A stretch of DNA of 51,768 nucleotides from Akkermansia muciniphila (GTDB taxonomy: Bacteria; Verrucomicrobiota; Verrucomicrobiia; Opitutales; Opitutaceae), in assembly GCA_945888375.1 (NCBI GenBank), contig CAMCZZ010000023.1, positions 1 to 51,768 on the forward strand. The letters run 5' to 3'. Under the pieces are notes generated by a model. The model did no database searches. It saw only the letters and a list, made by a program, of their open reading frames with translations, and had not been told where the DNA came from. Each line of letters begins with the position of its first letter. The first letter of the stretch is position 1. Of this stretch, positions 11,199 through 51,768 are shown piece after piece. The translations under genes were made by a program, and so were the position numbers.

Positions 11199-11203
11199 GG
11201 TCA

Positions 11204-11289: not shown

Positions 11290-11310
11290 AGACTGCCTTA
11301 TCTTCAAGTC

Positions 11311-12072
11311 ATGCTCTCCCGCCGCGTCATCCCCTGCCTCGACGTTCACGCCGGCCGCGTGGTGAAGGGCATCAAGTTCCTCGAGCTGCGCGATGCCGGA
11401 GACCCCGTCGAGTCCGCCAAGGCCTACGACGCCCAAGGCGCCGACGAACTCGTATTTCTCGACATCACCGCGTCCTCCGACGGACGGGGGATCATGCACG
11501 ATGTCGTCGCCCGCACCGCCGAGCAGTGCTTCATGCCCCTCACCGTGGGCGGAGGCCTGCGCACCGTTTCCGATATCGAGGCCATGTTGAAAAGCGGCGC
11601 CGATAAGGTCTCGCTCAACACCGCCGCGATCAAGGACCCGGAGCTCATCCGCGCCTCGTCGGAACGTTTCGGCGCCCAGTGCATCGTGCTCGCCATCGAC
11701 GCCAAGCGCGAACCCGACGGCCGCTCTTGGCGCGTTTACACCCACGGCGGCCGCAATCGCACCGAGCTCGACGCCGTGAAATGGGCGGAACAAGCCGTGG
11801 CCCTGGGCGCGGGCGAGATCCTGCTCACTTCGATGGACGCCGATGGCACCCTTGCCGGCTTCGACAGCCCGCTTACCCGGGCCGTGTCCGATGCTGTCAG
11901 CGTGCCCGTCATCGCCAGCGGCGGCGCCGGACAACTCGAGCACTTCGCCGACGTGCTGCGAGACGGCCACGCCAGTGCCGTGCTCGCCGCCAGCCTTTTC
12001 CACTTCGGCACCCTGACGGTCGGCCAGGTAAAAAATCACCTCGCCGCCGCCGGCCTGCCCGTCCGCCGCTAG
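11311..12072 (+). CDS. hisF: Imidazole glycerol phosphate synthase subunit HisF
   Basis: HisF is the cyclase of histidine biosynthesis; with HisH it converts PRFAR and ammonia to IGP and AICAR. The 253-residue length is exact for the family. The (beta/alpha)8-barrel shows catalytic D11 ([17 protein letters not shown]) and D130 (VLAIDAK), and phosphate-binding loops ([21 protein letters not shown]). No other his gene lies in the window, so histidine genes are dispersed in this genome. It converges with glgP with a 42-base gap and no clear terminator. Confidence 0.97.
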
Positions 12073-12114
12073 GCTTGGACTCGGCCGGGCTCCGGCAGCG
12101 GAGGGGTTGTCCAG

Positions 12115-34509: not shown

Positions 34510-35898
34510 TCAGGGCATAGCGGAGGCCGTGACCGGATCGGACTCGCCGACGGCCTTGCGCACGGTGGCCAGGGCGATGGTGTGGCGGTAGTTGGCCTCG
34601 AGGCGGTTCAGGCTGGCCTCGGTGAGGGCTTGGCGGGCCTGCAGCACGTCGAGCTGGGTGGCGGCGCCGTTGCGGTAGCGCACATCGGCAAGACGGAGGG
34701 CCTCCTCGGCCTGGCCGACGACCTTGGCGGCGGCCTCGGCGAGCTCGGCCGCCTCCTGCAGGGAGGAAAGCGCGCGGCGCACCTCCACCTCGACCGCGAG
34801 AGTCTGCTCGGCGACGCTGAGCCGGGCCTGGTTCAACTGGGCGCGGGCCTGGACGACCTTGCCGCGGGTGCGGGCGCCGTCGAAAAGTGCCCAGCTCGCC
34901 TCGACCCCAGCGGTCCAGCCGTCGAGGGAGTCATTGAGGGAGTTGGAGGTGCTCCGTTTAACGCCCTCGTAGCCGCCGGTGACATAGATCTCGGGCAGGT
35001 AGTCGGCCTTCGACACGGTCACGCCGGACTCGCGGGCGCGCCGGATCTGCTCGAGGCGCAGGAGTTCGGGGCGGCGGGCCTTGGCGGCGGAGAGGGAGGC
35101 CTGCAGCTCATAGGCCACCGGGTGATACTCCAGGGTGCCGGTAAACGCGGGCACTTTTTTCAAATCGGAACCAAAGCCGCCCTGGTAGCCGAGGGCGGCG
35201 CGGAGTTCGTCGATGGCGATGCGCAGGCCGTTGCGCGCGCTGATGAGTGCGGGCTGGGCGTTGGCCAAGGCGACCTCGGCGGTGAGCACCTCGAAATGCG
35301 ATACCGAGCCGGCCTCGAAGCGGTTCTTCGCCGTCAGGAGCTGCTCTTTCAGCAAGGCCACCCCCTGTTCCTGCACCTGGATGCGTTCCCGGTTCAGCAA
35401 CACGTCAGCAAAGCGGGTGCGCACGAGCAGGAGGACCTCGTTGACCACGGCCTCGATCTCGAATACGGCGGCGGAGCGGGTGGTCTTGGCGGCATCGAGC
35501 GCGGCGCCCACGCCGCCACCGCTGTAAACCAGCTGCCGCACGATGATGGCGGCGCGCCAATTCTGGTAGTTGACCGGCACGCCGGCGCGGGCCTCGGACA
35601 GACTCCGGGCGTCGCGCGAGTAGCCGACGGTGGCGGCGACATTGGGAATGGCCTGGGCGCGGACCTCGACGATCAAGCCCTCCTGCTCGCGCAGGCGTTC
35701 GCGGGCCTGGCGGATGGCGAAGTTGTTCTCCAAGGCGAAGACCAGGGCCTGGTCGAGGGTGAGCACATCGGGCACGGCGGGGACGACCGGGGCGGGCGCG
35801 GGCGGCGGCTCGGGCTGAAGGGCCTCGACAAAGGGCAACACGTCGGCGGACGCGGAGGCGGCCAACAGGCCGGCGGCGAAAAGGGCGGTGCGTTTCAT
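34510..35898 (-). CDS. TolC-family outer membrane efflux protein
   Basis: The 462-residue protein has a signal peptide (MKRTALFAAGLLAASASA, cleaved before DVLPF). It shows the duplicated TolC layout: LTLDQALVFALENNFAIRQA opens the first half and ELLRLEQIRRARESGVTVSK the second, each with long amphipathic helices. It forms the outer-membrane exit duct for the RND pump encoded 15 bases upstream. The substrate is unknown. Confidence 0.93.
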   Translation of the reverse strand: MKRTALFAAGLLAASASADVLPFVEALQPEPPPAPAPVVPAVPDVLTLDQALVFALENNFAIRQARERLREQEGLIVEVRAQAIPNVAATVGYSRDARSLSEARAGVPVNYQNWRAAIIVRQLVYSGGGVGAALDAAKTTRSAAVFEIEAVVNEVLLLVRTRFADVLLNRERIQVQEQGVALLKEQLLTAKNRFEAGSVSHFEVLTAEVALANAQPALISARNGLRIAIDELRAALGYQGGFGSDLKKVPAFTGTLEYHPVAYELQASLSAAKARRPELLRLEQIRRARESGVTVSKADYLPEIYVTGGYEGVKRSTSNSLNDSLDGWTAGVEASWALFDGARTRGKVVQARAQLNQARLSVAEQTLAVEVEVRRALSSLQEAAELAEAAAKVVGQAEEALRLADVRYRNGAATQLDVLQARQALTEASLNRLEANYRHTIALATVRKAVGESDPVTASAMP

Positions 35899-35913
35899 GG
35901 CGGTGGCGAGGAT

Positions 35914-38900
35914 TTAGGCGGCAGGGTTGAGGGCGGGCTCGGCAGGGGGAGCCTCAGGCGAGGGCGACCGGTTCCGGGAGTGGTCCTTGGCGATCAGCAT
36001 GTAGAGGGAAGGCAGGACGAGCAGGGTGAAAATCGTGCCGATGGTCATGCCGCCGACCAGCACGAGACCGATCGAATTACGCGCGGCGGCACCCGGTCCG
36101 GTGACGAGGGTAAGGGGGAAATGGCCGACGACGGTCGCCACGGTGGTCATAAGAATGGGGCGCAGGCGGGTCAGCGAGGCCTCGCGAATGGCCGCCAGCT
36201 TGGGGCGGCCCTGCTCTTGCAGCACGTTGGCGAACTCGACGATCAGGATGCCATTCTTCGCGATCAGGCCGACGAGCGTGACCAGGCCGACCTGGGCGTA
36301 GATATTCATCGTGGTGGTCCATCCGTCGGTCCAGAAGGCGAGGTTCGGGTTGGGCATCTTCAGGAAGGTGAAGAGCAGGGCGCCGAAGAGCGCGAGGGGC
36401 ACCGACCCCAGGAGGATGACGAAGGGATCGCGGAAGGAATTAAACTGCGCGGCGAGCACCAGGAAAATCAGGACCACGGCCAGACCCAGCGCGGGCAGAA
36501 ACTTATTGCCCTCGGTGCGGAGCTGGCGGGATTCCCCGGTGTAATCGATCACATAACCCTTGGGGAGAATCTTGGCCGCCTCATCCTCGAGAAAACGCAA
36601 CCCCTCATCCAGCGGCACGATGCAGACGCCGGAAATGGAGACGGCGTTGAGCTGCTGGAAGCGGTTGAGCGAGCGCGGGACGACGGAGTTCTGAATGGTC
36701 GCGACCGTGCTGAGCGGGATAAGCGATCCGTTCGGACCGGTGACGTAGATATCCTTTAACTGCTCGGCGTTGAGCCGGTCACCGCGCTTGATCTGGGGGA
36801 TAACCTTGTAGCTGCGGCCCTCGATATTGAAGCGGTTGACGAAATTGCCGCCTACGGCTGCGCCCACGTCGGCGCCGACCTGCTGGAGATTCAGGCCGAG
36901 CGCGGCGACCTTGTCGCGGTCGATCACGATTTCGGACTGGGGCTGGTCGATCTTGACGTCGATGATCGGAGGGAAGGCGAATTTACCGCTCTCCATCGCG
37001 CGTTTCTGGAGCTCTTCCGCAAACACCAGCACTTGCTCGCTGGGAGCGGTGGATGCCAGGACGAACTCGACCGGGAACTGGCCGCCGCCGGGTAGCGCGG
37101 GGGGCGTCACGGCGAACATCTGGATACCCGGAATCGTGCCCAGCTTGGCCTGCACCTCGGGGAGAATTTGAAAAACGGAGCGCTGGCGCTCGCTCCAGGG
37201 CTTTACCACCAGGCCGCCAAAACCGGAGGTTGGGTTGGTGATTTGGAAAGTGAAGTCGGTCTCGGACACGCTGCGGAAGGCCTCGCCGGCGGCGGCGGCA
37301 TAGCGGCTGGTCTGGTCGAGGGTGTTGTTCGCCCCGGTATTCATGATGCCGAAGATCACGCCCTGGTCCTCGGCGGGGGCGAGTTCGGTGGGGGACAGCT
37401 TGAACATCGGCAATGCGAGCAGCACCACCACGATCCAGATCGTGTAAACGAAGGGACGGTTGGCGAGGGTGCCATCGAGCACGCCGGAATAGGCCCCCTT
37501 CACCCTTTCGAAAAGGGCATTCACCTTGGCCGGGAAACCAGTGTGGGACGCGCCCGGGCGAAGGAGCTTCGCCGACATCATTGGCGAGAGGGTCAAGGCC
37601 ACCACACCCGAGATCGTGACCGCGCCGGCCAGGGTAAAGGCAAACTCGCGGAATAGGGCGCCGGTAAGCCCGCCCTGCAAGCCGATGGGCGCATAGACCG
37701 AGGCCAGCGTGATGGTCATGGCGATGACCGGACCGACCAGTTCGCGCGCGCCTAGGAGGGACGCCTCCAGCGGGGATTTACCCTCGCTGATGTGGCGTTC
37801 GACGTTCTCGACCACCACGATGGCATCGTCCACCACCAGGCCGACCGCCAACACGATGGCGAGCAGGGTGAGCAGATTGATGGTGAAACCGAGGGCCTGC
37901 ATCAGGAACACCGCCCCGATGAGGGATACCGGGATGGCGACCACGGGCACGAGCACCGAGCGGAAGGAACCCAGGAAGAAAAAGATCACGACCACCACGA
38001 TCAGAAGGGTCTCGATCAGGGTTTTCACCACATCGTGGATCGCGTCGTTGATGTATTCCGTGGAATCGTAGGCCACCCGGGTTTCGAGGCCGGTGGGCAG
38101 CTCGCGGGCGATGGCGACCATCTCGGCGCGGATGCGTTTGATAACGTCGATGGAATTGGCGTTGGGCAGGACGTAGATACCCATGAACACGGCGGTCTGG
38201 CCGGAGAAGCGCACCTCGGTGTTGTAATCCTCGGCCCCGAGCACGACATCGGCGATGTCCTGCAGGCGGACGATCACGCCGCCGGACTCGAGCACGACGA
38301 GTTGCCGGAACTCCTCGACGGTCTTCAGATCGGTATTGGCGGTCAGGTTGACCTGAATCAGCGAGCCCTTGGTTTCGCCGACGGCGGCGAGGTAGTTATT
38401 GCTGGCGAGGGCGGCTCGGACCCGGGCGGGGCTCAGGTTAAAGGCGGCCATGCGCTCGGGCTTCAGCCATATACGCATGGCGAAGGTGCGGGCGCCCAGC
38501 ACCTCGGCGCGTTGCACGCCGGGGACGGCAGTGAGGCGGGGCTGGACGACGCGCACGAGATAGTCGGTGATCTCGTTCTGCCGGAGCACGTCGGATTTGA
38601 AGTTGAGGTAAGCGGCGGCGAACTGGCTGTCGGCCGAGACGATGTTAAGGACCGGCAACTCGGCCTCGGGCGGCAGGTCGCCGCGGACCTTGTTCACCTT
38701 TGAGCTGATTTCAGACAGCGCCTTGTTGGCCTCGTAGTTTAGCTTCAACCGGGCAGTGATGGTGGACACGCCTTGGGCGCTGCTGGATTGAAGATAATCG
38801 ATGCCGTCGGACTCGGCGATGGCGCGCTCCAGCGGAGTCGTGATGAAACCGCGCACCAGCTCGGCACTGGCGCCGACATAGGCGGTGGTGACGGTGATGG

Positions 38901-39033
38901 AGGCGTTCTCGCTCCGCGGATACTGGCGGACATTAAGCGAGCTGTAGGCCTGCAAACCGGCGATAATGATCACGAGGCTGACCACAATCGCCAGCACGGG
39001 CCGGCGGATGAAAATATCGGTAAAGGAATTCAT
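35914..39033 (-). CDS. RND-family multidrug efflux transporter (HAE-1/AcrB type)
   Basis: This 1039-residue inner-membrane proton antiporter has the expected 12-span, two-pore-domain layout. It starts NSFTDIFIRRPVLAIVVSLV. Key features are the TM4 acidic pair in LAVGLVVDDAIVVVENVERH, the FFFLGSFRSVLVPVVAIPVS segment and, late in the protein, VGLIAKNGILIVEFAN and LTRLRPILMTTVATVVG. It works with the adaptor (45 bases upstream) and TolC-like protein (15 bases downstream). Full length with no break. Substrate range cannot be read from sequence. Confidence 0.96.
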   Translation of the reverse strand: MNSFTDIFIRRPVLAIVVSLVIIIAGLQAYSSLNVRQYPRSENASITVTTAYVGASAELVRGFITTPLERAIAESDGIDYLQSSSAQGVSTITARLKLNYEANKALSEISSKVNKVRGDLPPEAELPVLNIVSADSQFAAAYLNFKSDVLRQNEITDYLVRVVQPRLTAVPGVQRAEVLGARTFAMRIWLKPERMAAFNLSPARVRAALASNNYLAAVGETKGSLIQVNLTANTDLKTVEEFRQLVVLESGGVIVRLQDIADVVLGAEDYNTEVRFSGQTAVFMGIYVLPNANSIDVIKRIRAEMVAIARELPTGLETRVAYDSTEYINDAIHDVVKTLIETLLIVVVVIFFFLGSFRSVLVPVVAIPVSLIGAVFLMQALGFTINLLTLLAIVLAVGLVVDDAIVVVENVERHISEGKSPLEASLLGARELVGPVIAMTITLASVYAPIGLQGGLTGALFREFAFTLAGAVTISGVVALTLSPMMSAKLLRPGASHTGFPAKVNALFERVKGAYSGVLDGTLANRPFVYTIWIVVVLLALPMFKLSPTELAPAEDQGVIFGIMNTGANNTLDQTSRYAAAAGEAFRSVSETDFTFQITNPTSGFGGLVVKPWSERQRSVFQILPEVQAKLGTIPGIQMFAVTPPALPGGGQFPVEFVLASTAPSEQVLVFAEELQKRAMESGKFAFPPIIDVKIDQPQSEIVIDRDKVAALGLNLQQVGADVGAAVGGNFVNRFNIEGRSYKVIPQIKRGDRLNAEQLKDIYVTGPNGSLIPLSTVATIQNSVVPRSLNRFQQLNAVSISGVCIVPLDEGLRFLEDEAAKILPKGYVIDYTGESRQLRTEGNKFLPALGLAVVLIFLVLAAQFNSFRDPFVILLGSVPLALFGALLFTFLKMPNPNLAFWTDGWTTTMNIYAQVGLVTLVGLIAKNGILIVEFANVLQEQGRPKLAAIREASLTRLRPILMTTVATVVGHFPLTLVTGPGAAARNSIGLVLVGGMTIGTIFTLLVLPSLYMLIAKDHSRNRSPSPEAPPAEPALNPAA

Positions 39034-39078
39034 GGTAGGTGCAGCGCGTCAGGAAGCGGGGGGCGCGGGGACGACGGC

Positions 39079-40206
39079 TCAGGAATCGGTGGGGGTCGGA
39101 GCGATGCGGGCGTCGGGGGCGAGGGAATTATCGACCGAGATGGCGACGCCGTTGCGAAGTTTGAACACGCCCGCGCTCACGATGGTATCGCCGAGTTTCA
39201 AGCCCGAGGTAACGGCCACGAAATCTCCTCGCTTCACCCCGAGGCGGACAAACTGCTGGCGCACGGTCTTCTGCGGGACCCCGGCGGCGTCCTTGCCGTC
39301 CTCTACGATAAAGACGGTGTCGCCGTAGGGTGCGTAGAGCACGGAGGTGGCGGGGATGATGAGAACCTTATCGGCCACCGGGAGATCAACCGCGACCGAC
39401 CCGAACATGCCCGGGCGCAAGAGCCCGGCGGGATTGGCCAGAGTGATCTGCAGTTTAACGCTGCGCGTGGCCGCATCGAGGTCGGGATTGATGGCGGTCA
39501 CCTTGCCGGAGAACTCACGGCCGGGATAAACATCGGTGCTGACGCGCGCGCCCAGACCTTCGGAAAGCTGGGCCAAGTTTTGCTGCGGCAGGGAGAAATT
39601 CACATAGATCGGGTCGAGGGATTGCAGCGAAACGATCGGCGTGCCGACGGCTAAAAACTGGCCGAGGTTGATCTGGCGGATGCCGACTCGTCCCGCGAAA
39701 GGAGCGGACACGCGGCGCTTGGCGATCACGGCGCGAATATTCGCCACTTCGGCAAAGGCTTGTTCACTCTGAGCCTCAAACGAATCGAGTTCAGACTGGG
39801 AGTTGGTATTCTGCTCACGCAGCGACTTGGCCCGCGCTAGGTTCAACCGGGCGAGCTCGGCCTTGGCCAGGGCGGAGGCGAGCTGCGCCTCTTCCACGGA
39901 GGTATCGAGCTCGACCAGGACAGCCCCGGCGGGAACCTCGGCACCGGAGTCGAAATTGATGCGACTCACGGTGCCAGTCACCTCGGAGGCCAGGGTCACA
40001 CCCTGCACGGCAGCGAAGGAACCGACCGCATTAAGGCTGGGCCGCCAAGTCTCTTCGCGCACCTCCGCAGTGGTGACGGCCTCGGGCGGAGGCACCATGG
40101 TCTTCCCCGTCGCGATCAACGCACTGATTTGGAGTGCCTTGATGGCGACCAGGGGAGCGACGAGCAGGAACAGGATAAAGCCGGTGAGGCTGAGTTTCTT
40201 GAACAT
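39079..40206 (-). CDS. RND efflux periplasmic adaptor (membrane fusion protein)
   Basis: The 375-residue protein has an N-terminal membrane segment (LTGFILFLLVAPLVAIKALQ). The split lipoyl domain shows ASEVTGTVSRINFDSGAEVP and AVIAKRRVSAPFAGRVGIRQ, on either side of a helical hairpin (ASALAKAELARLNLARAKSL). Beta-barrel and membrane-proximal domains follow (VSTDVYPGREFSGKVTAINP, LLRPGMFGSVAVDLP). It bridges the RND pump and the outer-membrane duct. Gene order adaptor-RND-TolC is standard; marR precedes it by 27 bases. Confidence 0.95.
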   Translation of the reverse strand: MFKKLSLTGFILFLLVAPLVAIKALQISALIATGKTMVPPPEAVTTAEVREETWRPSLNAVGSFAAVQGVTLASEVTGTVSRINFDSGAEVPAGAVLVELDTSVEEAQLASALAKAELARLNLARAKSLREQNTNSQSELDSFEAQSEQAFAEVANIRAVIAKRRVSAPFAGRVGIRQINLGQFLAVGTPIVSLQSLDPIYVNFSLPQQNLAQLSEGLGARVSTDVYPGREFSGKVTAINPDLDAATRSVKLQITLANPAGLLRPGMFGSVAVDLPVADKVLIIPATSVLYAPYGDTVFIVEDGKDAAGVPQKTVRQQFVRLGVKRGDFVAVTSGLKLGDTIVSAGVFKLRNGVAISVDNSLAPDARIAPTPTDS

Positions 40207-40978: not shown

Positions 40979-41344
40979 ATTAACCAGCAACTGCCAAGAA
41001 AATCAGGTCCTCTGAAAACAGCCAATGCTTAACCAGATGATAGACATTGGACCTATTGATTCCTTACCGACACAGCAGGTCTGCCAACAAGGCTATTCGC
41101 AAAGCCGTAGCGCCTTCTGCGAAACTCTCCTCGGCATCGCCCACGACGCCCCAAGCCGGGGTTCCCGTCAAATAAATCACCGCACACCCCATCACACACG
41201 GGGGGACAATCCGCCTTACATGAAGGGACGACCCCACACGCCAGCCTACACCGGATGAGCTCTCTGTTAAAATCGCTCCGCCGCGCGCCCTTCCCACCGC
41301 TTTCTCCTTCAACCTACCCCGCGTCTCGTTACCGTCTCCTCCCG
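40979..41344. other. Intergenic region before the hsd genes
   Basis: These 366 bases separate tRNA-Arg from hsdM. A 77-codon open frame (41025-41258) has composition unlike a protein (Pro/His/Arg/Thr-rich) and no ribosome-binding site, so I do not call it. The left part is visibly less GC-rich than the core. I see no repeat of the tRNA end, no integrase and no clear promoter; the hsdM promoter must lie here. Confidence 0.5.
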
Positions 41345-43846
41345 ATGGCCATCAAAAAGTCCGAACTCTACTCCTCCCTCTGGCAGTCTTGCGACGAACT
41401 CCGGGGCGGTATGGACGCCTCCCAATACAAGGACTACGTCCTCGTCCTCCTCTTCCTCAAATACGTCAGCGACAAATTCGCCGGCAAACCCTTCGCCCCC
41501 ATCACCATCCCGCCCGGTGCCGGCTTCGCCGACATGGTCGCGCTCAAGGGCACGTCCAACATCGGCGACGACATCAACAAAAAGATCCTCGCCCCGCTCG
41601 CCCTCGCCAACGAGCTGTCCGACTTCCCCGATTTCAACGACCCCGCCAAGCTCGGCGATGGCAAGGAGCGGGTGGACCGCCTCACCCACCTCATCGCCAT
41701 CTTCGAAAACCCCGCCCTCGATTTCTCCCAAAACCGCGCCGACGGCGACGATCTCCTCGGCGATGCCTACGAGTATTTGATGCGCCACTTCGCCACCGAG
41801 AGCGGCAAGGCGAAGGGCCAGTTCTACACCCCGTCCGAGGTCAGCAGCGTCATCGCCCACATCCTCGGCATCCGCCACGCCGACCCCACCGCCAACACCA
41901 CCGCCTACGATCCCACCTGCGGCTCCGGTTCCCTCCTCCTGAAGGTCGGCGCCGAGGCCGGCCAGGGCAAGGACCTGCGCATTACCCTCTACGGCCAGGA
42001 AAAGGATAACGCCACCGCCGGCCTCGCCCGCATGAACATGATCCTGCACGATTTCCCCACCGCCGAAATCAAGCAGGGCAACACCCTCGCCTCCCCGCTC
42101 TTCCTCGATGGCGACGCCCTCAAGGCCTTCGACTACGTCGTCGCCAATCCCCCCTTCAGCGACAAGCGCTGGAGCACCGGCCTCCTCCCCGACGCCGACC
42201 CGTTCCAGCGTTTCACCGGCTACGGCATCCCGCCCGCCAAGCAGGGCGACTACGCCTACCTGCTCCACATCCTCCGCTCCCTCAAAAGCACCGGCAAGGG
42301 CGCCTGCATCCTCCCCCACGGCGTCCTCTTTCGCGGCAACGCCGAGGGCGTCATCCGCCGCAACCTCGTCCAGCGCGGCGTCATCCGCGCCATCATCGGC
42401 CTGCCCGCCAATCTCTTCTACGGCACCGGCATCCCCGCCTGCATCATCCTGCTCGACAAGGAGGGCGCCCCCGCCCGCAAGGCCATCTTCCTGATCGACG
42501 CCTCCAAAGGCTTCAAAAAAGACGGCCCCAAGAACCGCCTCCGCGAGCAGGACATCCACAAGATCGTGGACACCTTTAACCGCCTCGACGAGAGCGACCC
42601 CCGCTACGCCCGCCTCGTGCCCGTCGCCGAGATCGCCGACCCCAAAAACGACTACAACCTCAACCTCCCGCGCTACATCGACAGCACCGAGCCCGAGGAC
42701 GTGCAGGATATCGACGCCCACCTGCGCGGCGGCATCCCCGACCGCGACCTCGACGCCCTCGCCCCCTACTGGCAGGTCATGCCCGGCGTCCGCTCCGCCC
42801 TCTTCCGCCCCCTCCGCCCCGGCTACTCCGCCCTCCGCTCCGCTTCCGACTCCGCTCTCTCAAATTCGGAATCTGAAATCTCAAATGGACCGTCGCTGAA
42901 GGCGACGATCTTCGCCCACCCCGAGTTCACCGCCTTCACCACCGAGGCCCGGAATCGCTTCACCCGCTGGCAAACCGCCGCCGCCGTCCGCCTCCGCGCC
43001 CTCGCCCCCGGCGCCCAGCCCAAGTCCCTCATCGAGACCATCGCCGAGGACCTGCTCGCCACCTTCAAGACCGCCCCGCTGCTCGACGCCTACGACGTGT
43101 ATCAACACCTCATGGACTACTGGGCCGCCACCCTGCAGGACGACTGCTACCTCGTCGCCGACGCCGGCTGGCGCGCCGCCGCCCAGCCCCGCCTCCTCAT
43201 CGAGGATAAAACCAAAAAATCCAAAACCCGGCCCGACTACGCCCTCGGCAAAAAGAAATACCTCGCCGAGCTGCTCCCGCCCGCCCTGCTCATCGCCCGC
43301 TACTACGCCCCCGAGCAAGCCGCCATCGAGGCCCTCGAAGCCCGCCTCGCCTCCCTCGCCCAGCAACTCGAAGAACTCGCCGAAGAGCACGGCGGCGAAG
43401 GCGGCCTGCTCGAAGACGCCGCCAACGATAAAGGCAAACTCACCAAAGCCTCCGTCGCCGCCCGCCTCAAAGACCGCAAAGGCGACGCCGACGCGGCCGA
43501 CGAGATCAAGGTCCTCAAAGACTACCTCGCCCTCACCGAACAGGAAACCGCCACCGGCGCGCAGCTCTCCGCCGCGCAGGAGGCCCTCGCCGCCCAGGTC
43601 CACGCCCGCTACGCCACCCTCACCGAGGCCGAGATCCAGACCCTCGTGGTGGACGACAAATGGCTAAAAACCCTCGCCGCCGCCGTGCAAGGCGAGCTCG
43701 ACCGCGTCTCCCAGACCCTCACCGGCCGCATCCGCCAGCTCGCCGAACGCTACGCCACCCCGCTGCCGAAGCTCACTGACGAAGTCGCGACCCTCGCCGC
43801 CCGGGTGGACGAACACCTCAAAAAAATGGGGGCAGTATGGAAGTGA
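41345..43846 (+). CDS. hsdM: Type I restriction-modification DNA methyltransferase subunit HsdM
   Basis: HsdM methylates adenine (N6) at the site chosen by HsdS. From ATG 41345 the product has 833 residues: N-terminal HsdM domain (LWQSCDELRGGMDASQYKDY), SAM motif DPTCGSGSLLLK (189-200), catalytic NPPF (268-271) and the usual FYTPSEVSSVIAHIL block. A long helical C-terminal extension (about 640-833) is partly coiled coil (LEARLASLAQQLEELAEEHG). Residues near 498-516 (SASDSALSNSESEISN) look like a foreign insertion between RPGYSAL and KATIFAHPEF. It overlaps hsdS by 10 bases. No hsdR lies in the window. Confidence 0.94.
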   Translation: MAIKKSELYSSLWQSCDELRGGMDASQYKDYVLVLLFLKYVSDKFAGKPFAPITIPPGAGFADMVALKGTSNIGDDINKKILAPLALANELSDFPDFNDPAKLGDGKERVDRLTHLIAIFENPALDFSQNRADGDDLLGDAYEYLMRHFATESGKAKGQFYTPSEVSSVIAHILGIRHADPTANTTAYDPTCGSGSLLLKVGAEAGQGKDLRITLYGQEKDNATAGLARMNMILHDFPTAEIKQGNTLASPLFLDGDALKAFDYVVANPPFSDKRWSTGLLPDADPFQRFTGYGIPPAKQGDYAYLLHILRSLKSTGKGACILPHGVLFRGNAEGVIRRNLVQRGVIRAIIGLPANLFYGTGIPACIILLDKEGAPARKAIFLIDASKGFKKDGPKNRLREQDIHKIVDTFNRLDESDPRYARLVPVAEIADPKNDYNLNLPRYIDSTEPEDVQDIDAHLRGGIPDRDLDALAPYWQVMPGVRSALFRPLRPGYSALRSASDSALSNSESEISNGPSLKATIFAHPEFTAFTTEARNRFTRWQTAAAVRLRALAPGAQPKSLIETIAEDLLATFKTAPLLDAYDVYQHLMDYWAATLQDDCYLVADAGWRAAAQPRLLIEDKTKKSKTRPDYALGKKKYLAELLPPALLIARYYAPEQAAIEALEARLASLAQQLEELAEEHGGEGGLLEDAANDKGKLTKASVAARLKDRKGDADAADEIKVLKDYLALTEQETATGAQLSAAQEALAAQVHARYATLTEAEIQTLVVDDKWLKTLAAAVQGELDRVSQTLTGRIRQLAERYATPLPKLTDEVATLAARVDEHLKKMGAVWK
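42836..42892 (+). repeat. In-frame repeat-like insertion inside hsdM
   Basis: This stretch encodes a Ser-rich segment (residues about 498-516) and ends with CAAATTCGGAATCTGAAATC followed by TCAAATGG. That text is AT-rich and word-like, unlike the C-rich hsdM around it, and resembles the intergenic repeats seen elsewhere here. It keeps the reading frame. In HsdM relatives as I remember them, the flanking blocks are joined by a shorter linker. Confidence 0.45.
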
Positions 43847-44994
43847 AACCCGGCTACAAACAAACCGAGGTCGGCGTCATCCCGGACGATTGGGATGTTG
43901 CGCAGATTCGCGACGTATGCCGATTGGTTAACGGACGGGGCTTTAAGCCGTTTGAGTGGCAAACTGTCGGCCTCCCCATCATCCGCATCCAAAACCTGAA
44001 CGGCTCAGAGGACTTCAATTTTTACTCGGGACAATACAACCCGAAGATTCTCGTCGAACACGGGCAACTCTTGTTTGCGTGGTCAGGAAGCCGTGGCACT
44101 TCATTTGGGCCACACGTTTGGAGTGGTGGAAGCGCACTACTGAACTACCACACTTGGAAGGTGGTGGTTAACGAGTCCAAAATTGAACCGGACTTCCTCC
44201 TTTTCTCACTGCGACAACTGACCAGCTACATCGAAGACCGAGCACACGGCGCTTCGGCGCTAGTCCACACGCAGAAATGGGAAATGGAGAAGTTCCCAAT
44301 CGCGTTTCCCGCAACCCTCCCCGAACAACGCGCCATAGCCACGGCGTTGAGCGATGTGGATGGGCTGCTGGGCGGGCTGGAGCGGCTGATCGCCAAGAAG
44401 CGCGACCTCAAACAGGCCGCCATGCAGCAACTCCTCACCGCCCAAACCCGCCTCCCAGGCTTCCACGGCGAGTGGCATGTGAAACGGCTGGGGGATGTCG
44501 TCCAAATTCAAAAAGGACAGCTGATCACTAGCAGCACGTTGCAGCCGGGAGACATTCCAGTGATCGCAGGCGGCAAGCAGCCCGCCTATTTTCACGCCAC
44601 CGCAAATCGGTTCGGGCGCACGATCACAATCAGCGCATCTGGTGCGAGTGCCGGTTACGTTGCACGCTACGACCACCCAATTTTCGCCTCGGATTGCTCC
44701 ACGATAAGCGAGTCGAAAACCTACTGCCTCGACTTCATCTTCTATCAACTCTTGTTGAAGCAGCAGACGATCTACAAAGCGCAAACAGGCGGTGCTCAGC
44801 CCCACATTCACGCGAAGGATTTGAATCCAATTCTCTTCTCCTTCCCCAGCGTCCCCGAACAAACCGCCATCGCCGAGGTGCTGAGGGAGATGGACGGGGA
44901 GCTGGCGGCGTTGGAGGAGCGGCGAGAGAAGACCCGCGCCCTCAAGCAGTCCATGATGCAAGCCCTCCTCACCGGCCGCATCCGCTTGGTGTGA
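43837..44994 (+). CDS. hsdS: Type I restriction-modification specificity subunit HsdS
   Basis: HsdS recognises the split DNA target for the HsdM complex. The 385 residues show two target-recognition domains (about 12-160 and 215-338). Each is followed by a conserved helical repeat: PEQRAIATALSDVDGLLGGL (from 162) and PEQTAIAEVLREMDGELAAL (from 340), ending in LLTAQTRLPGF and LLTGRIRLV. Both domains are less GC-rich than the helices and hsdM, as expected from exchange of recognition domains. The start overlaps hsdM by 10 bases. Complete, no break. Confidence 0.94.
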   Translation: MEVKPGYKQTEVGVIPDDWDVAQIRDVCRLVNGRGFKPFEWQTVGLPIIRIQNLNGSEDFNFYSGQYNPKILVEHGQLLFAWSGSRGTSFGPHVWSGGSALLNYHTWKVVVNESKIEPDFLLFSLRQLTSYIEDRAHGASALVHTQKWEMEKFPIAFPATLPEQRAIATALSDVDGLLGGLERLIAKKRDLKQAAMQQLLTAQTRLPGFHGEWHVKRLGDVVQIQKGQLITSSTLQPGDIPVIAGGKQPAYFHATANRFGRTITISASGASAGYVARYDHPIFASDCSTISESKTYCLDFIFYQLLLKQQTIYKAQTGGAQPHIHAKDLNPILFSFPSVPEQTAIAEVLREMDGELAALEERREKTRALKQSMMQALLTGRIRLV

Positions 44995-45043: not shown

Positions 45044-46099
45044 ATGCCCGACTCCCCGCATCCCGACCTGATCGAGTTCCGCATCCTCCCCGAAGACAAC
45101 GGGCATGAGGTCCCGGTTTCGTTGCTCACGCAGGGCTTGCAGGGGCTTCAGCAACTCATCCACTTCAGCGCCTTGGCGGTCGAGGCGCGCACAGTGCGGC
45201 AACGTGTGCGGGTATCGGCCGACATTCAGCAGCGCTACACCCTGCATTGCCGCCCTCCCGAGGACGGTAGCTTCATGGTTGCCGGCCGCGTCGGCGATCT
45301 CCGCAAGGGCCTCGTGAACACCGGCGACGTGCGCAAGGTCATGGGGCTCGTCCACGAGTTTTCCCACGCCACGCTTGCTGCCAAAGATGAGGACCTGCTT
45401 CGCCTCGTGCCCGACAGCCGGATCCGCGTGCGCATGCTCGACTGCCTGCGCGGCATGGCGCCACCGCCGGGCTCTGGCTACGCTTTTGAGTTCAAGAACT
45501 GCGTCGGCGCCCCCGTGCGGCTCGACGAGGTGCTATCCGGACGAATCGACGCCGTCCTAAGCGCGCCTGAGCCGCGCCAGCGCCAGCACACGATCACCGG
45601 CGAACTGCGCAGCATCGCTTTTGCGGAACACCGGCTGACGATCTACTATGCTCCCAAGGGCCGCACACTGGAGTGTCTCTACGACGAATCGCTTGAGCCC
45701 ATGCTTTTCGAAAATCGCCGTGATCTCATTCAGGTTACCGGACAGGTCGAGGACGCTGACGACGGACACCCGCGGCGCATTGTAGAAGTGTCGCGCATCG
45801 AGGAGCTGGATCTCTCTCCCTTCGTCATAGTCGAGTTCGCCAACGGCATCCCCCTTGCGGAACCGCTACGACTGGATCCGATTCTGAGCGAGGATCAGCA
45901 GTTAATCCGCCTGCAAAACGATACGCTCGATATTGATGTTTTTGCCCACACACGCGGAGAACTCCTCGTTGAACTGCGCAGTCAGCTGGAAATGCTCTGG
46001 GTCGAATATGCCCAGGAGCACGACGACGCTTTGTCCGCCCCCGCCCAGGCATTGAAGCGCCGTCTTCTGGAACTCGTAAAATCCTCCGCCCATGCCTAG
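45044..46099 (+). CDS. Unknown 351-residue protein of a two-gene module
   Basis: I cannot assign a family. Residues 1-140 look like a mixed alpha/beta domain (LIEFRILPEDNGHEVPVSLL, VRVSADIQQRYTLHCRPPED). Residues 181-290 are beta-rich (TITGELRSIAFAEHRLTIYY). The C-terminal block 293-348 (LDIDVFAHTRGELLVELRSQ, then WVEYAQEHDDALSAPAQALK) resembles, from memory, a domain found beside HicA-like small proteins. It starts 49 bases after hsdS and overlaps the next gene by 8 bases, so the two are co-translated. There are no membrane segments or signal peptide. The larger protein may restrain or partner the 96-residue one. Confidence 0.75.
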   Translation: MPDSPHPDLIEFRILPEDNGHEVPVSLLTQGLQGLQQLIHFSALAVEARTVRQRVRVSADIQQRYTLHCRPPEDGSFMVAGRVGDLRKGLVNTGDVRKVMGLVHEFSHATLAAKDEDLLRLVPDSRIRVRMLDCLRGMAPPPGSGYAFEFKNCVGAPVRLDEVLSGRIDAVLSAPEPRQRQHTITGELRSIAFAEHRLTIYYAPKGRTLECLYDESLEPMLFENRRDLIQVTGQVEDADDGHPRRIVEVSRIEELDLSPFVIVEFANGIPLAEPLRLDPILSEDQQLIRLQNDTLDIDVFAHTRGELLVELRSQLEMLWVEYAQEHDDALSAPAQALKRRLLELVKSSAHA

Positions 46100-46382
46100 G
46101 GATAAATCCGAAGTCGAAACGAGCCTGCTAAAAAAAGGCTTCAAGCCGACTCACGCCGGCTCGGATCATAACTGGTTTGTTTACACGGATACCGCCGGCA
46201 AAAAAGCCATCGGTGCCCGCACGAAAACCAGCCATGGTCGTGGATTTGACTTGGATGATTACTTGCTCGGACAGATGGCGCGGCAGGTAAGTCTTACCAA
46301 AAAGCAGTTCCTCGACTTGGTGGACTGTCCCTTGTCGCGCGAGGAGTATGAGAAGTTATTGAAGGCTGCGGGTAAACTGTAG
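46092..46382 (+). CDS. Small HicA-like protein paired with the 351-residue gene
   Basis: The 96-residue protein begins MPRDKSEVETSLLKKGFKPT and has GSDHNWFVYTD (His 26) where HicA RNases have their catalytic GSHH-type motif. ARTKTSHGRGFDLDDYLLGQ follows, and the protein ends with DLVDCPLSREEYEKLL. The first half fits the double-stranded-RNA-binding-like HicA fold. The second half (TSHG ... QMARQ ... DCPLSR) is an extension I associate from memory with a family of uncharacterised proteins sometimes labelled HicA. The 8-base overlap with the preceding gene points to a toxin-antitoxin-like or two-part system. Confidence 0.75.
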   Translation: MPRDKSEVETSLLKKGFKPTHAGSDHNWFVYTDTAGKKAIGARTKTSHGRGFDLDDYLLGQMARQVSLTKKQFLDLVDCPLSREEYEKLLKAAGKL

Positions 46383-46662: not shown

Positions 46663-47838
46663 ATGACTGAGGCCGAGCAGCAACAGGTGCCGCTTGTTTC
46701 AGCTGAGGGAACTACCCAGTCGGCGTTTCCCGCCGGCTGGGTTTTGGCTGTTTTCGAAGTTATCCATGCGTTCGCCCCTGCTTTCGCAAAAAACCAAAAA
46801 CTGCCCCAAATCGGCCGAACCGGAACCGGCGGTCGTATCAATCAGGGTGCCTCGGTAACAGTAAAAACCTATGAAGGTCTAGAATCTGCCCTGGTTCGGC
46901 TCGTCACGTGTCTTTTCCCCAAAACCGCCTCGGTAAATCATTTCGCAGAAAAATATGTGAAGGAATATTTCGGCCTCTGGACACAAGCCTTCGAAATCGC
47001 CCCGATGTGGGTGAAGATGATGGGCTGCGAAACAGCTCCATCCGGCGTGATTGCCCATGCGCTCATCCGCGACCTCGTTCTCCGGCTTTGCTACCTGGAA
47101 ACCTGCGAACGAAAGCTCAATAAAGGGGACTTCACTGAGTGGGAATTGTCCCTGCTCAAAACCGATTCGATCCCTCAAATCTACCAAACTATTCTCAATG
47201 CCCGGACCAAACCTCGCGGGATCACGTTGGAAGCGTTGGCCCGAAGAATGAAACTCAGCGAGAGGTCCCTGCGTCGTTATAAAAAAGGCAAAAGCGCTCC
47301 ATCGATGATTCACCTGTGCAGCCTGAAACCACAGGATGAAAACGAGCGGCTACTTGGCTGTATCGGCGTCATCGACGGCCTCCTTCGGAAGCTCAGGTTA
47401 CGCGACAGTTCACTCCAAACCGAAATCCTGAAAATCGCGGAATCAATTCTCCCCAGCCATCGACGGTCACTGGACTCATTCGCGGGGCAAGTTCTACATC
47501 AGCGAACCGACGGAACGATCCAAAGCGAAACACACGATTTCGAGAGTTACATCACTTACGGAGACAACATGCTCCTTCATCCAGGTTTTGAGGAAGTGTG
47601 GCCAAAGATACCGGATGCGCTCTGGCGAGCCCATCTTTACAACCTGCAATTCGCCCGCGTGGCCGACTTGGCCCAAGCTTACTTCCAGTTTTCCGATGAA
47701 GAAAACGACCGTGCTCTGGAAAGATTCTTTGATGCTGCGGAACGTGAATCCGGCGGCTGCCCATATGAATGGATGAATAGGCTTAAAAACCGTAACAATA
47801 TCCTGCCCTTCCCGGATACCGGCCCAAAGGCAGGCTAG
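46663..47838 (+). CDS. Unknown 391-residue protein with a helix-turn-helix segment
   Basis: The protein is mostly helical with no membrane segment. Residues 187-212 (ITLEALARRMKLSERSLRRY, then KKGKSAPS) read as an XRE-type helix-turn-helix in the middle of the chain. A helical N-terminal domain (71-180) and a C-terminal helical domain flank it (for example LWRAHLYNLQFARVADLAQA). Pol-like or nuclease motifs are absent. It follows the SMP-like gene by two bases and converges with the ankyrin operon. It may be a DNA-binding regulator or sensor of this defence-type region. Confidence 0.7.
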   Translation: MTEAEQQQVPLVSAEGTTQSAFPAGWVLAVFEVIHAFAPAFAKNQKLPQIGRTGTGGRINQGASVTVKTYEGLESALVRLVTCLFPKTASVNHFAEKYVKEYFGLWTQAFEIAPMWVKMMGCETAPSGVIAHALIRDLVLRLCYLETCERKLNKGDFTEWELSLLKTDSIPQIYQTILNARTKPRGITLEALARRMKLSERSLRRYKKGKSAPSMIHLCSLKPQDENERLLGCIGVIDGLLRKLRLRDSSLQTEILKIAESILPSHRRSLDSFAGQVLHQRTDGTIQSETHDFESYITYGDNMLLHPGFEEVWPKIPDALWRAHLYNLQFARVADLAQAYFQFSDEENDRALERFFDAAERESGGCPYEWMNRLKNRNNILPFPDTGPKAG

Positions 47839-47842
47839 TTAC

Positions 47843-47989
47843 TTAGATCCGCCACGCCTTGATCCGCGTCGCATACTCGTCGCGTGGCAAGCGGCTACCG
47901 GCGGCGCAGATTTTCTCCAGTCGCTCCGCCGCCTCCGCTTTCGGCAACTCGCCATCGGGAGGGCACCGGAGCGCGCGGTTGTTTCCTCA
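47843..47989 (-). other. In-frame continuation past the TGA of the ankyrin gene
   Basis: The ankyrin-protein frame stops at TGA 47987-47989, but the same frame then stays open for 47 codons to TAA 47843-47845. It reads GNNRALRCPPDGELPKAEAA, then ERLEKICAAGSRLPRDEYAT, then RIKAWRI, which looks like genuine protein. A nonsense mutation (for example from CGA or TGG), a sequencing error, or readthrough would each explain it. No selenocysteine insertion evidence was sought beyond the sequence itself. Confidence 0.65.
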
Positions 47990-50527
47990 AACCCTCCGGG
48001 GATACAACTGTCGGATGCGCTCCGACATCTCCATCGCGTGAATAGGCCGCCCGAGCACCGGCACAAAAAGCCGGTCATCGGCGCGGTGTGCGTGGAGAAG
48101 TTTCGCCATCTCGAAGTCATCGTCCCGGATCGCAAAGCAGAGCGCGGTAGCGCCGTCATCGCAGCGATGGTTTACGTTCGCTCCAGCTGTCAAAAGCTGA
48201 AGTGCGATGTCGTGCATGTGGCACTCTACCGACAAGGTGAAGGCGGTGTGTCCCTTGGTGCAGGTGGTGTCGATATCCACCACTCCATCGCCGACCAGGG
48301 ATACGAGGTATGAAATCACCTCACCAGCACGGTCTGGGTAGCCCATTCCGGAGCCTTCGGGGTAGCCGTTTTCGGCGATTTCCTTGGTTAACTCTTTAAA
48401 TATTTCTGCTGCCTGCGGAATCGAATTGATAAGTTTGTTAGCAACGTAACTCGCTTGTGATGTCGGTTTCACAGTCTGCGTATACTTTAACAACGCCTCA
48501 GGCGACATGCGATGGGTCGCCAAGAGCATCACTGAGTAGTAAAGTGCGGTTAGCCCCCCCTTCACTCGATCCTGATTGAGGTCGATTTCGCCGCCCCGGT
48601 CTCGCTTCCATTTCGTTAGTTCGCGCAACACATCCACCCGGCCGTGGATCAAAGCCCGCTCCAATGGGCTGTGGCGATTTTTGTCGGTTTCCCGGACTAG
48701 TGCCGAGCGTCTGATTGGGTTCTCTTCGCGACGCAGGATTTCCAGCACGAGATCGTAGGCGTCGCGGGCGAAAGCCTTGGTCACGCAGGTGTCGCCGGTG
48801 GAGTTGATGAAGTTCAGGTCGGCGCCGCTACGAACCAACTCAAACGCACGGGGAATGTCGCGCCGGTCAATCACCTCCATCAAGGGCGACTGGTCGCGCC
48901 CCGTAGCGGCGGAAAGGAGCACGCGTTTTTGACGTTTATCCACCGGCTCCTTGAGGCGCTCCATTGCCTCGGGCTCCAAGAAACCAAATATGCCGGCATA
49001 GTAGGCATGATCCAAAGCTTGGAGTGAAAGTTCGTTGCGCAGACGCCGCCGTAGATCGCTGTGCAGCTCATCAATAAACTTTCGTGCTGCTTTTTCCACC
49101 CGTTGTGCTTCCTGCTCGTGGTCAAAATCCTTGCCGAACCCCGCAAGATCCCACCACGCGAGTGTGTTTTTGATCCAATCCAGCAGCCGTTCACCTTCGG
49201 CAATTTTACCGCGCTGGATGAGCGCCGCCAGTCCGAGCGCCTCCTGGATGACATGGGGCGTGTAAAAACCGACGCGATACCGGCACTGGCTAACTGCCTC
49301 ACGATAAACTTCCAAAGCGTTCAGCAGAGTTTGGTTTGTGGGCTTGGGTTCCCGCGAAAGCGTCAGGCGCGCCTCTATTGCCAAAAACACGCCACCCAAC
49401 GGTTCCTCCCATTCACGGTAGTCGCGCCGCAAGGCAGCCAAGCTATCGCCCGCCGTTGCCACCGAATCTGGGGGCTCATTTAGCATGGTTGCATTCCACA
49501 AGGCTCCGATTTTCTCCCAAAGTGTTTTAAAACCCTGAGGTAAGACTGACCTCGAATACGTGTCATAATAGTCGCGATGGCAGCGTAGGTCGGCCCAGCG
49601 CAAATCGACGAGCGTCGCTTCGCCTTGGTCGATTATCTCGACAACGAATTTACGAAACCCAGCGACTATGTCCTCCAAGTAACGGATATAATCATCCAGC
49701 GAATATCGGGAGGATTGCGGAACATCAGCCGCTAGCCTTTCCTCAAGTCGTCCAAGACTTGCCGACTGACGTTTCAAGAGGTCGGTAGCGTGGCGTTTTT
49801 CTTCGGGCGATACGCAGGTGCCATACGCTTCACCGAGGGCTTCTATCAGCAGCGCCAGACCAAAATTTAGCATGATTTCGTTCAGGCGTTCATGCCCACG
49901 GAAAAAACTGGCGAGCGAATAAAACCGCGAACGCGTATCACCCGCCGCCCATTCGCCCACATCGGCCTCGGTCACCGATTGCGCGGTGGGCCGGTAAAAC
50001 GCAAAACACTCTTTCAACAGGGGATGAGCCGGCGCATCGGCGGACCAGAGAGTGGAAAGCAGTTTTTCCAGCGGTTGTTGCAGAATGGGGCCATTAACGT
50101 CCGGGATGCGGAGCAATAGTTTGCGCAGTATAAAGAGCCCATAAATCGCGTCAGGTGCTTTACCACGGCCATACCATGAACGAGTGCGGTCACGGTCCAG
50201 GTGCGTAGTGATGTCTCTAAGCATCGTCGTGTGCTCTTCGAGCGCACAGTTTACGGACCAGGTCAAAATGCGTTTAAGTTTATCGCCGTGCGGAAGCGAC
50301 GCCGTGTGATGCTGGATGAATTTGTCGAAATCCTCGCATGAGGGAACGCGGCCCTCGGGCTCGCAGGCCCAATCACGTAATTGGTCGCTCACCTTTCCGG
50401 CACGGGCTTTGTCCGGGGGGGCGGTCGGGGAGAAAATGTCGCTCCACTCAGGCAAGTGGAGCGAATTGATCAAAAGCTCGAAGACTTCCCCGCAGGTGGG
50501 AAATGATGCTAGTGTTTTTGTTTTCAT
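47987..50527 (-). CDS. Large ankyrin-repeat protein of the viperin operon
   Basis: The 846-residue protein has a long helical N-terminal region (1-540) with no recognised domain (for example RFYSLASFFRGHERLNEIML). Ankyrin repeats follow at about 545-640 (SPLMEVIDRRDIPRAFELVR, SGADLNFINSTGDTCVTKAF) and about 755-820 (KGHTAFTLSVECHMHDIALQ, LLTAGANVNHRCDDGATALC). No signal peptide or membrane segment is visible. Its start overlaps the 86-residue gene by ATGA, so it is the last gene of a translationally coupled operon behind the viperin-like gene. Ankyrin proteins often sense or bind partners in defence systems; this role is an inference. The true C-terminus may lie 47 codons further on. Confidence 0.85.
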   Translation of the reverse strand: MKTKTLASFPTCGEVFELLINSLHLPEWSDIFSPTAPPDKARAGKVSDQLRDWACEPEGRVPSCEDFDKFIQHHTASLPHGDKLKRILTWSVNCALEEHTTMLRDITTHLDRDRTRSWYGRGKAPDAIYGLFILRKLLLRIPDVNGPILQQPLEKLLSTLWSADAPAHPLLKECFAFYRPTAQSVTEADVGEWAAGDTRSRFYSLASFFRGHERLNEIMLNFGLALLIEALGEAYGTCVSPEEKRHATDLLKRQSASLGRLEERLAADVPQSSRYSLDDYIRYLEDIVAGFRKFVVEIIDQGEATLVDLRWADLRCHRDYYDTYSRSVLPQGFKTLWEKIGALWNATMLNEPPDSVATAGDSLAALRRDYREWEEPLGGVFLAIEARLTLSREPKPTNQTLLNALEVYREAVSQCRYRVGFYTPHVIQEALGLAALIQRGKIAEGERLLDWIKNTLAWWDLAGFGKDFDHEQEAQRVEKAARKFIDELHSDLRRRLRNELSLQALDHAYYAGIFGFLEPEAMERLKEPVDKRQKRVLLSAATGRDQSPLMEVIDRRDIPRAFELVRSGADLNFINSTGDTCVTKAFARDAYDLVLEILRREENPIRRSALVRETDKNRHSPLERALIHGRVDVLRELTKWKRDRGGEIDLNQDRVKGGLTALYYSVMLLATHRMSPEALLKYTQTVKPTSQASYVANKLINSIPQAAEIFKELTKEIAENGYPEGSGMGYPDRAGEVISYLVSLVGDGVVDIDTTCTKGHTAFTLSVECHMHDIALQLLTAGANVNHRCDDGATALCFAIRDDDFEMAKLLHAHRADDRLFVPVLGRPIHAMEMSERIRQLYPRRV

Positions 50528-50784
50528 CCCAAATAAGTCGCGAGGTTGAGGTGGTTGTAGCGCTCGTGACTGAGGCAGTCACGAAATTGATAACCGAGAG
50601 GCGTGCGCAGGAAGATCGCCCGCCATCGCCGCCCAAGCGGGATGGAGACCAACTCGCGCGCCACTTGCAGGCGCTTGCCGCGAAACTCGACCGGTGAACG
50701 CCGCTCAACTTCCAGGGCATAGCGCACGCGTCTCAGCCGTGCGGCCTGCGCCGGAGGCAGGCCGGGAACTGTGGTCGTTCTCAT
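50524..50784 (-). CDS. 86-residue unknown protein between viperin-like and ankyrin genes
   Basis: The protein is basic and Arg-rich, starting MRTTTVPGLPPAQAARLRRV. The central part ELVSIPLGRRWRAIFLRTPL and the end LSHERYNHLNLATYLG suggest a small alpha/beta fold, faintly like RelE/ParE-type toxins, but no catalytic pattern is clear. It overlaps the viperin-like gene upstream and the ankyrin gene downstream by four bases each (ATGA), so all three are translationally coupled. It may be an accessory subunit of a viperin-based system. Confidence 0.7.
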   Translation of the reverse strand: MRTTTVPGLPPAQAARLRRVRYALEVERRSPVEFRGKRLQVARELVSIPLGRRWRAIFLRTPLGYQFRDCLSHERYNHLNLATYLG

Positions 50785-51624
50785 CGTGCGACCTCCATCG
50801 TGCGGTTGAGCCCCGTGGCGAAGTCGTAGTCACCTTGCCGGGCGCGGAAGCGTTCTGTCGAAAAGGCGATCTCGGCCCAGGCCGCTTCGATGCCGACCTT
50901 CACAATCGGCCGGCTGTAGCGATAAGTGCCGGCCGAGTTGTCAAAAAAGCAGCCGTTGGGACCAACCATAGCATAGGTGCCATACATATCGGCCTGCGTT
51001 TCCGGCACGATCACCACGCCCTCGCGGGCTAGGTCGGCATGGCGGGCCACGAACTCGCGGAAAACCGCTTCGCTGATCGCCCAGCGGTCAAAGGTGCCGC
51101 CGTTCTCCTCGGCGATACGCGTCGCCTGGAAGAGCTTCCAGCGGCGTGGTTGGGCGGCTCGGATAAAGGCGCTGAAATCCTCCGCCGCGTTGGCCTGGTT
51201 CACCACGGTATTGAGCTTCACCCGGATGCCGAGTGCCTGCGCCGCATGGATTTTATCCAGATATTCGGCCGCGCTGATCGTGACTCCACGGGCCGCGCGA
51301 CCGATGTGCCGGTTGGTGTCGGCATTCTGCGAATCAATACTGATGGTCAGCCAGTCCAGGATCGGCGCGAGACGGCGGATCTTGTCCCCGGTCAGGAGGG
51401 CACCGTTGGTGACGAGCGAGGTCACCAAGCCCTCTGCCCGGGCAAAGGCGATGTCCTCGAATACGGTTGGGGAGAGCAAAGGCTCGCCGCCGACAAAAGT
51501 GACCTTGCGCGGACTATCCTCGAAGTTTCGGGGGGCATGGGCGATCTGCCGGATAATCTCGTGTAGTTCGGGTTGGGGAATCTTTGGGCGTTTCGCGGAG
51601 GCGAAGCCGGCGTAGCAGAAGGTA
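50781..51624 (-). pseudogene. Prokaryotic viperin-like radical SAM enzyme, 5' end cut by an insertion sequence
   Basis: The readable frame (about 280 residues) begins TFCYAGFASAKRP, which is the last cysteine of the CxxxCxxC iron-sulfur motif. It continues with KVTFVGGEPLLSPTVFEDI (GGEP SAM motif), SLVTNGALLTG, LTISIDSQNAD, KLNTVVNQANAAEDFSAFI, PRRWKLFQATRIAEENGG and MYGTYAMVGPNGCFFDNSAG, then YRYSRPIVKVGIEAAWAEIA. The NTVVN, RWK-x-FQ, E-N and YSxPIxxVGxEAA blocks are those of viperin. Viperins convert CTP, UTP or GTP to 3'-deoxy-3',4'-didehydro nucleotides that stop phage RNA synthesis. The first two cysteines and N-terminus are missing; a TAA at 51630-51632 lies in the inserted DNA. An internal TTG at 51477-51479 could not give an active enzyme. 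Confidence 0.85.
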
Positions 51625-51647
51625 GTGTCTTAAAAGTTCAGCAAAAG

Positions 51648-51721
51648 GTCGGGTCATGGAAGGGTGGTTTTGGTGACCAAACCTAAACCACAAACGAACA
51701 AGGAACCGACCATGACCCGAC
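51648..51721 (+). promoter_or_regulatory. Inverted repeat that would sequester the transposase start codon
   Basis: GTCGGGTCATGG (51648-51659) and CCATGACCCGAC (51710-51721) are perfect 12-base inverted arms; the second contains the transposase ATG (51712). A transcript entering from outside the element would hide the start in a hairpin, while one starting between the arms would not. IS10 and IS50 use the same principle against impinging transcription. The loop also has a small palindrome, TTTGGTGACCAAA. Confidence 0.6.
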
Positions 51722-51768
51722 AGAAGAAGAAAGTAGAGAAGATGAGCGACGCGCGCGAGCAGATGCTG
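51712..51768 (+). CDS. Transposase N-terminus (partial)
   Basis: ATG 51712 is preceded by AAGGAA, a good ribosome-binding site. The 19 visible codons read MTRQKKKVEKMSDAREQML and run off the window. The basic start and its place just inside an element end fit a transposase, but too little is visible to name the family. Confidence 0.65.
   Translation, partial: MTRQKKKVEKMSDAREQML

Follow-up and report, generated by a model that had tools for sequence, protein, structure and literature searches.

A prokaryotic viperin gene heading a viperin–ParE_like–ankyrin operon, recently inactivated by an IS256-family element

At its right-hand end, the DNA analysed here (51,768 nucleotides, hereafter the window, which is contig C23 of a 39-contig genome that is 99.5% complete) breaks off within a repeat, and next to this repeat a viperin frame on the minus strand opens without its N-terminal part. 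The locus raises the questions of what interrupted the gene, where its missing part lies, and to what kind of genetic unit it belonged. Our answer, which we hold at a probability of about 0.9, is that a prokaryotic viperin, leading a viperin–ParE_like–ankyrin operon within a type I restriction island, was recently inactivated by the transposition of a 1426-bp IS256-family element just after the codon for its third cysteine, with the duplication of 8 bp. The features around the interruption are the following:

50781..51620, minus strand: C-terminal remainder of the viperin, opening with FCYAGF, 279 codons and a stop (NCBIfam NF038283, PADLOC pVip, ORF list)
51613..51620, minus strand: 8-bp target duplication, TTCTGCTA; the identical 8 bases are the last of the N-terminal viperin stub (contig C36, L035:7908-7915)
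51621..51768, plus strand: right end of the IS256-family element, truncated where the contig stops (full copy in L034; NF033543)

The two halves of the viperin gene

The frame on the minus strand at 50781-51629 encodes a prokaryotic viperin, scoring 243.6 bits against the NCBIfam profile NF038283 (viperin_w_prok; curated equivalog cut-off, 180 bits), which it spans from position 17 to 280 of 281, the first 16 positions being absent. The same frame was matched by PADLOC pVip (E 7.5e-74) and further by the generic Pfam Radical_SAM domain. The first-pass annotation of this DNA had recognized a viperin here from the blocks GGEPLL, NTVVN, RRWKLFQ, and RYSRPIVKVGIEAA, and had named an HMM search against viperin families as the check; frame and blocks lie where it had placed them, and the search bore out the assignment. 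Read from 51629 to 50781, the frame starts D-T-T-F-C-Y-A-G-F with a stop codon just before it, and the codons preceding TTC-TGC (TAA-GAC-ACT-ACC) are every one derived from the element. No internal stop is found along the rest of the frame, and the earliest candidate start codon is a TTG at 51479, beyond the cysteine motif. Restarting there, the remainder could in principle give a shortened viperin with another role, as an open frame of 232 aa is indeed present; however, such a product would be without all three cluster cysteines, whose CxxxCxxC motif was kept in 12 of the 12 full-length viperin relatives compared, and we consider it extremely improbable.

The missing part was found in the same genome. 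A profile search at E <= 1 returned six matches, corresponding to the window, a stub at the end of contig C36, and four weak radical-SAM proteins (12 to 39 bits), with no second viperin among them. The C36 end matches the viperin profile at positions 2-20 (E 0.0026) and reads MQTPALPPTINLHTLVPCNYQCGFC from L035:7839, carrying CNYQCGFC, and then a stop codon that arises at the junction by using the first base of the repeat. This stub comprises 25 residues from the start aligned with those of relatives, or 64 if counted from the earliest ATG in the frame, and holds all three cluster cysteines; an N-terminus with a CNxxC motif is what the first-pass annotation had expected beyond the contig end. 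When both flanks were joined with a single copy of the duplication, one open viperin frame of 302 residues containing CNYQCGFC was obtained. The CxxxCxxC motif is thus in one frame with the rest of the enzyme in the joined empty site, and on a separate frame in the genome as assembled.

The assembly contains no physical link between contigs C23 and C36, and we infer their adjacency from the shared duplication and the matching viperin halves. As each of them terminates in the element, the two halves might in theory come from unrelated loci cut at a common repeat. However, the halves complement each other along the viperin profile (positions 17-280 and 2-20), the 8-bp flank of one matches that of the other alone among the flanks collected, and no other viperin was found in the genome, so that an assembly artefact of this kind would surprise us greatly.

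The inserted element and its target duplication

A full copy of the element (C39:1612-3037, in L034) is 1426 bp long and encodes a transposase of 418 residues, assigned to the IS256 family by NF033543 (358.6 bits, cut-off 150) and matched by Pfam Transposase_mut (4.8e-139). Its termini are imperfect inverted repeats of 28 bases. The last 148 bases of the window recur at eight other contig ends, and the identity of 99-100% among the copies across the compared ends argues for a recent spread of the element. By mapping from the full copy, the first start codon of the transposase frame falls at about 51664 in the window, and its reading direction leads away from the viperin remainder.

Flanks of the element were collected throughout the genome, seven left and eight right, excluding two diverged copies (80%). 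Each of the seven left flanks, that of the viperin among them, shares a perfect 8-bp duplication with a single right flank, and the right flank of the insertion in C25 stays unpaired, as no left partner was found for it. The 8-mer common to the two viperin halves recurs in none of the other flanks collected. Over the whole set, 0.0009 matches would be expected by chance (56 pairings x 4^-8, or 56/65536). These one-to-one perfect duplications therefore speak for a true and recent insertion. Target duplications of the IS256 family measure 8-9 bp, a range in which those of this element fall.

On the N-terminal side, the element begins after two bases of the tyrosine codon that follows the third cysteine, and on the C-terminal side the duplication TTCTGCTA regenerates FC; the third-cysteine codon is present on both sides because it is contained in the duplication. 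The first-pass annotation had proposed an insertion sequence at the iron-sulfur motif and a target duplication to look for, and both were found, as the 1426-bp element separating the viperin halves and the 8 bp at its sides. It had also placed the junction inside the codon of the second cysteine, in which it erred, as the element actually enters just after the third cysteine of CNYQCGFC.

A perfect duplication with an intact frame on either side is also what would be left by an element capable of precise entry into and exit from the viperin gene, in which case the population would mix defended and undefended cells. In Staphylococcus and Pseudoalteromonas, IS256-family elements are known to act as a switch by inserting and excising reversibly (PMC5649170), and the elements presented there resemble the one in the window in transposase family, inverted ends, and 8-bp duplications. 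They differ from it in their reversible insertion, a feature given for those elements, whereas the window element is known from the occupied site alone, the only state held by the assembly. In addition, a recent one-way insertion also gives perfect duplications, and all seven resolved copies have one. We therefore regard phase switching as unlikely and favour a simple recent insertion.

The 279 codons that remain of the viperin in the window are directly preceded by an in-frame stop, within the element, and have no start codon ahead of the cysteine; the viperin gene is dead as assembled. Judging from the chemistry of the family, neither half would be a working radical-SAM enzyme, as the cluster ligands are encoded on one and the barrel on the other. 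Divided in this way over two frames, the disrupted locus could presumably yield no ddhNTP. The statement of the first-pass annotation that the cell has lost its viperin defence is supported for the assembled genome, because no second viperin was found there. The two genes downstream are probably silenced as well, since the transposase reads in the opposite direction and the operon promoter now lies behind 1.4 kb of foreign DNA. A search for promoters restricted to the sigma-70-like type detected no site in 51400-51768, including the outward direction from the element end (0 found, 0.1 expected in shuffles).

Partner genes, defence island, and distribution of the cassette

The viperin leads an operon in which the genes overlap by four bases at each junction, and restriction genes are encoded on both sides of the insertion:

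50524..50784, minus strand: ParE_like protein, 86 aa, predicted RelE/HigB-type fold (PF24732); its first 4 bases are shared with the end of the viperin frame
47987..50527, minus strand: ankyrin protein, 846 aa (Pfam Ank_2); its first 4 bases are shared with the end of the ParE_like frame
43837-44994, plus strand: hsdS, type I restriction
41255-43846, plus strand: hsdM, type I restriction
L035:3998-7126, on C36, far side of the insertion: hsdR, type I restriction
L035:7130-7710: PIN/RHH gene pair resembling VapBC, located between hsdR and the viperin stub and oriented divergently from the latter

With hsdM and hsdS on C23 and hsdR on C36, the viperin cassette is embedded in a defence island, and the division of the restriction genes across the same junction supports the neighbourhood of both contigs. 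The PIN/RHH pair scored under the NCBIfam cut-offs and over those of Pfam. Between hsdS and the viperin operon (45044-46382 and 46663-47838), the window encodes a 351-aa protein without family, a 96-aa protein with a weak likeness to HicA (E 0.033, below cut-off), and an HTH protein. Further away, at 34510-40206, there are genes for an RND efflux pump (OEP, AcrB-type, and HlyD-type).

The ParE_like protein belongs to PF24732 (46.2 bits over a gathering cut-off of 24.4; E 4.5e-12). Its structure was predicted from two sequences with a best pLDDT of 88, two of the five models scoring above 85 and the other three at 55-60, and the nearest solved folds retrieved by Foldseek were HigB, RelE, and YafQ (best E 0.035, TM up to 0.69), with no solved fold matching at E <= 0.001. 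No antitoxin family appeared among the listed Pfam and NCBIfam matches of its neighbours, the viperin and the ankyrin gene. The ankyrin protein consists of an N-terminal region of about 530 residues without assigned family followed by C-terminal ankyrin repeats. Searches with these 530 residues (four relatives) gave only E values of 0.12 and 0.16 against Pfam, and only a designed protein at E 0.11 among solved structures. The structure predicted for the ankyrin protein from a two-row alignment had a pLDDT of 38, from which no conclusion was drawn. PADLOC reported PDC-M72A in four of the four ankyrin proteins scanned, and 'Ankyrin' in one of them, memberships that were rejected because the matches span the repeats only.

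The comparison with a relative free of the insertion, which the first-pass annotation had pointed to, was provided by a Verrucomicrobia subdivision 3 MAG (L045, CAILMI010000025.1), the only relative retrieved in the scan of genome contigs with the viperin. It carries an intact viperin, 76% identical in the best segment, followed by the same two partners in the same order as in the window (ParE_like 62% and ankyrin 41% identical). Between both viperin frames, dN is 0.17 and dS is 3.3, which is saturated. L045 and genome G334 of the samples below were taken as one genome and counted once.

Three overlapping genome samples were then considered. In the phylum sample (387 genomes), the viperin was above cut-off in 12 genomes and the ankyrin protein in three (G000, G334, and G093), all three of which hold a viperin with the ankyrin gene downstream. 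The class sample (384 genomes) contained the ankyrin protein in four genomes, one of them new (G939), and the order sample (372 genomes) the viperin in five, again one new (G704), where viperin, ParE_like, and ankyrin genes succeed each other with short gaps between them. Altogether, five distinct ankyrin genes were found, that of the window and relatives in four other genomes, all from Verrucomicrobiota; all five lie downstream of a viperin, four with a ParE_like gene between. In G939 (C49, L096), the ankyrin gene directly follows the viperin without any ParE_like gene, which suggests that, in this viperin subgroup, the ankyrin protein is the more constant of the two partners.

The 12 viperin loci of the phylum sample together with those of G704 and G939 make 14 Verrucomicrobiota loci, a set that is not unbiased, since G939 was located through its ankyrin gene. 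The ankyrin gene is absent by profile from nine of these 14. PF24732, with 34 matches at E <= 1e-5 in 31 of the 387 phylum genomes, is the next same-strand gene after the viperin in five of the 12 viperin genomes (G000, G334, G093, G102, and G149) and adjoins it downstream in six of the 14 loci, G704 being the sixth. Seven loci (G216, G215, G239, G363, G391, G397, and G412) have neither the ankyrin gene nor PF24732 above cut-off, their neighbours being other, unrelated genes; the small gene after the viperin of G216 remained under the cut-off for PF24732 (E 0.085, 13.3 bits) and was not counted.

Some of these loci show further particularities. In G149 (L062), the viperin frame reaches 517 aa with a long C-terminal extension, and the ParE_like protein after it bears an N-terminal DUF7682 zinc-binding domain. 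Large genes of 640 and 727 aa immediately precede the viperin at L061:614-2536 and L065:6974-9157, respectively, and no Pfam or PADLOC family was found for them. Downstream of the viperin of G363 (L057, around 10600-12100 of the flipped locus), the peptide KSTQQPKGDCD is repeated in what looks like a translated CRISPR array.

Viperin relatives were present on 13 plasmid records, and phage records gave none at E 1e-20. ParE_like and ankyrin proteins are both absent by profile from the nine plasmid viperin loci examined out of these 13, so that the association with these partners is seen in Verrucomicrobiota only. The ankyrin protein was found neither in plasmids nor in IMG/VR, the latter searched with two peptide patterns and 26 stretches tested. 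A tblastn search with the ParE_like protein of L045 matched 12 plasmids of Vibrio and Photobacterium, and no annotated viperin was detected nearby in the two of them that were examined.

In G093, the ankyrin gene breaks at a contig end (L058, C86) and continues at the start of another (L070, C152). A 22-base sequence is common to the two break ends, where it lies in inverted orientation; the gene sequences on either side have the 8-bp direct repeat TCTGACCC in common, and the left end of the repeat recurs with different flanks on three other contigs. To judge by these sequences, the interruption looks like another insertion element, different from that of the window, its interior and transposase being unseen. 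On its right side, three bases separate the inverted end from the 8-bp repeat and a single right end was seen, for which reason the right boundary is unconfirmed.

Two of the five known cassettes are thus interrupted; neither the gene hit nor the repeat is the same in the two cases, and an 8-bp direct repeat accompanies both. This might indicate that the cassette is costly or self-toxic and that insertions into it are favoured at low phage pressure, which we take as possible, at odds well short of even. Against such selected loss, the cassettes number five, the proportion becomes one in four once that of the window, chosen for being broken, is set aside, and the second case has the incomplete evidence and the three extra bases just described.

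The viperin–ankyrin cassette and known viperin systems

The window gene is alike to pVip (NF038283; PADLOC PDLC02903, 'not associated with kinases') in its family, in the CxxxCxxC motif recovered across contigs, and in its defence-island setting. It differs in being split by an insertion sequence and in leading an operon with a predicted RelE-fold protein and an ankyrin protein, in place of which several of the plasmid viperins examined have an annotated nucleoside or thymidylate kinase. Genes relE and hicA beside pVip have already been published (mBio 2024, PMC10865869), and in our loci a small gene for a protein with a predicted RelE-type fold likewise directly follows the viperin; an ankyrin gene goes unmentioned in the accessible part of that article. 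In the literature on viperin with ankyrin or toxins, represented mostly by titles and abstracts, no report of an ankyrin partner for viperin was found, nor was an insertion in a bacterial viperin reported in that on viperin or defence genes and insertion elements, represented likewise.

An insertion into a single gene is in itself ordinary, and the viperin–ankyrin cassette is the more interesting part of this locus. When intact, it might act as an anti-phage module, in which the viperin would produce chain-terminating nucleotides, the putative RelE-fold protein would add a block of translation or RNA, and the ankyrin protein would sense or restrain; these roles are the least certain part of our proposal. 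We tentatively suggest, as a possibility that we would not call probable, that the three proteins work together in Verrucomicrobiota as a single anti-phage system of several parts. In it, the large ankyrin protein would always accompany the viperins of this subgroup, as a sensor or restraint, and the putative RelE-fold protein would serve as an optional second effector; the danger of the whole system to its host would lead to its repeated switching off by insertion sequences, possibly in a reversible way.

In conclusion, a clean and recent insertion in an antiviral enzyme offers a natural knock-out for comparison with intact relatives, and the interrupted cassettes make the cost of this defence testable. 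In addition, the recurrence of viperin with an ankyrin gene suggests that some bacterial viperins have a regulator or sensor not yet described.
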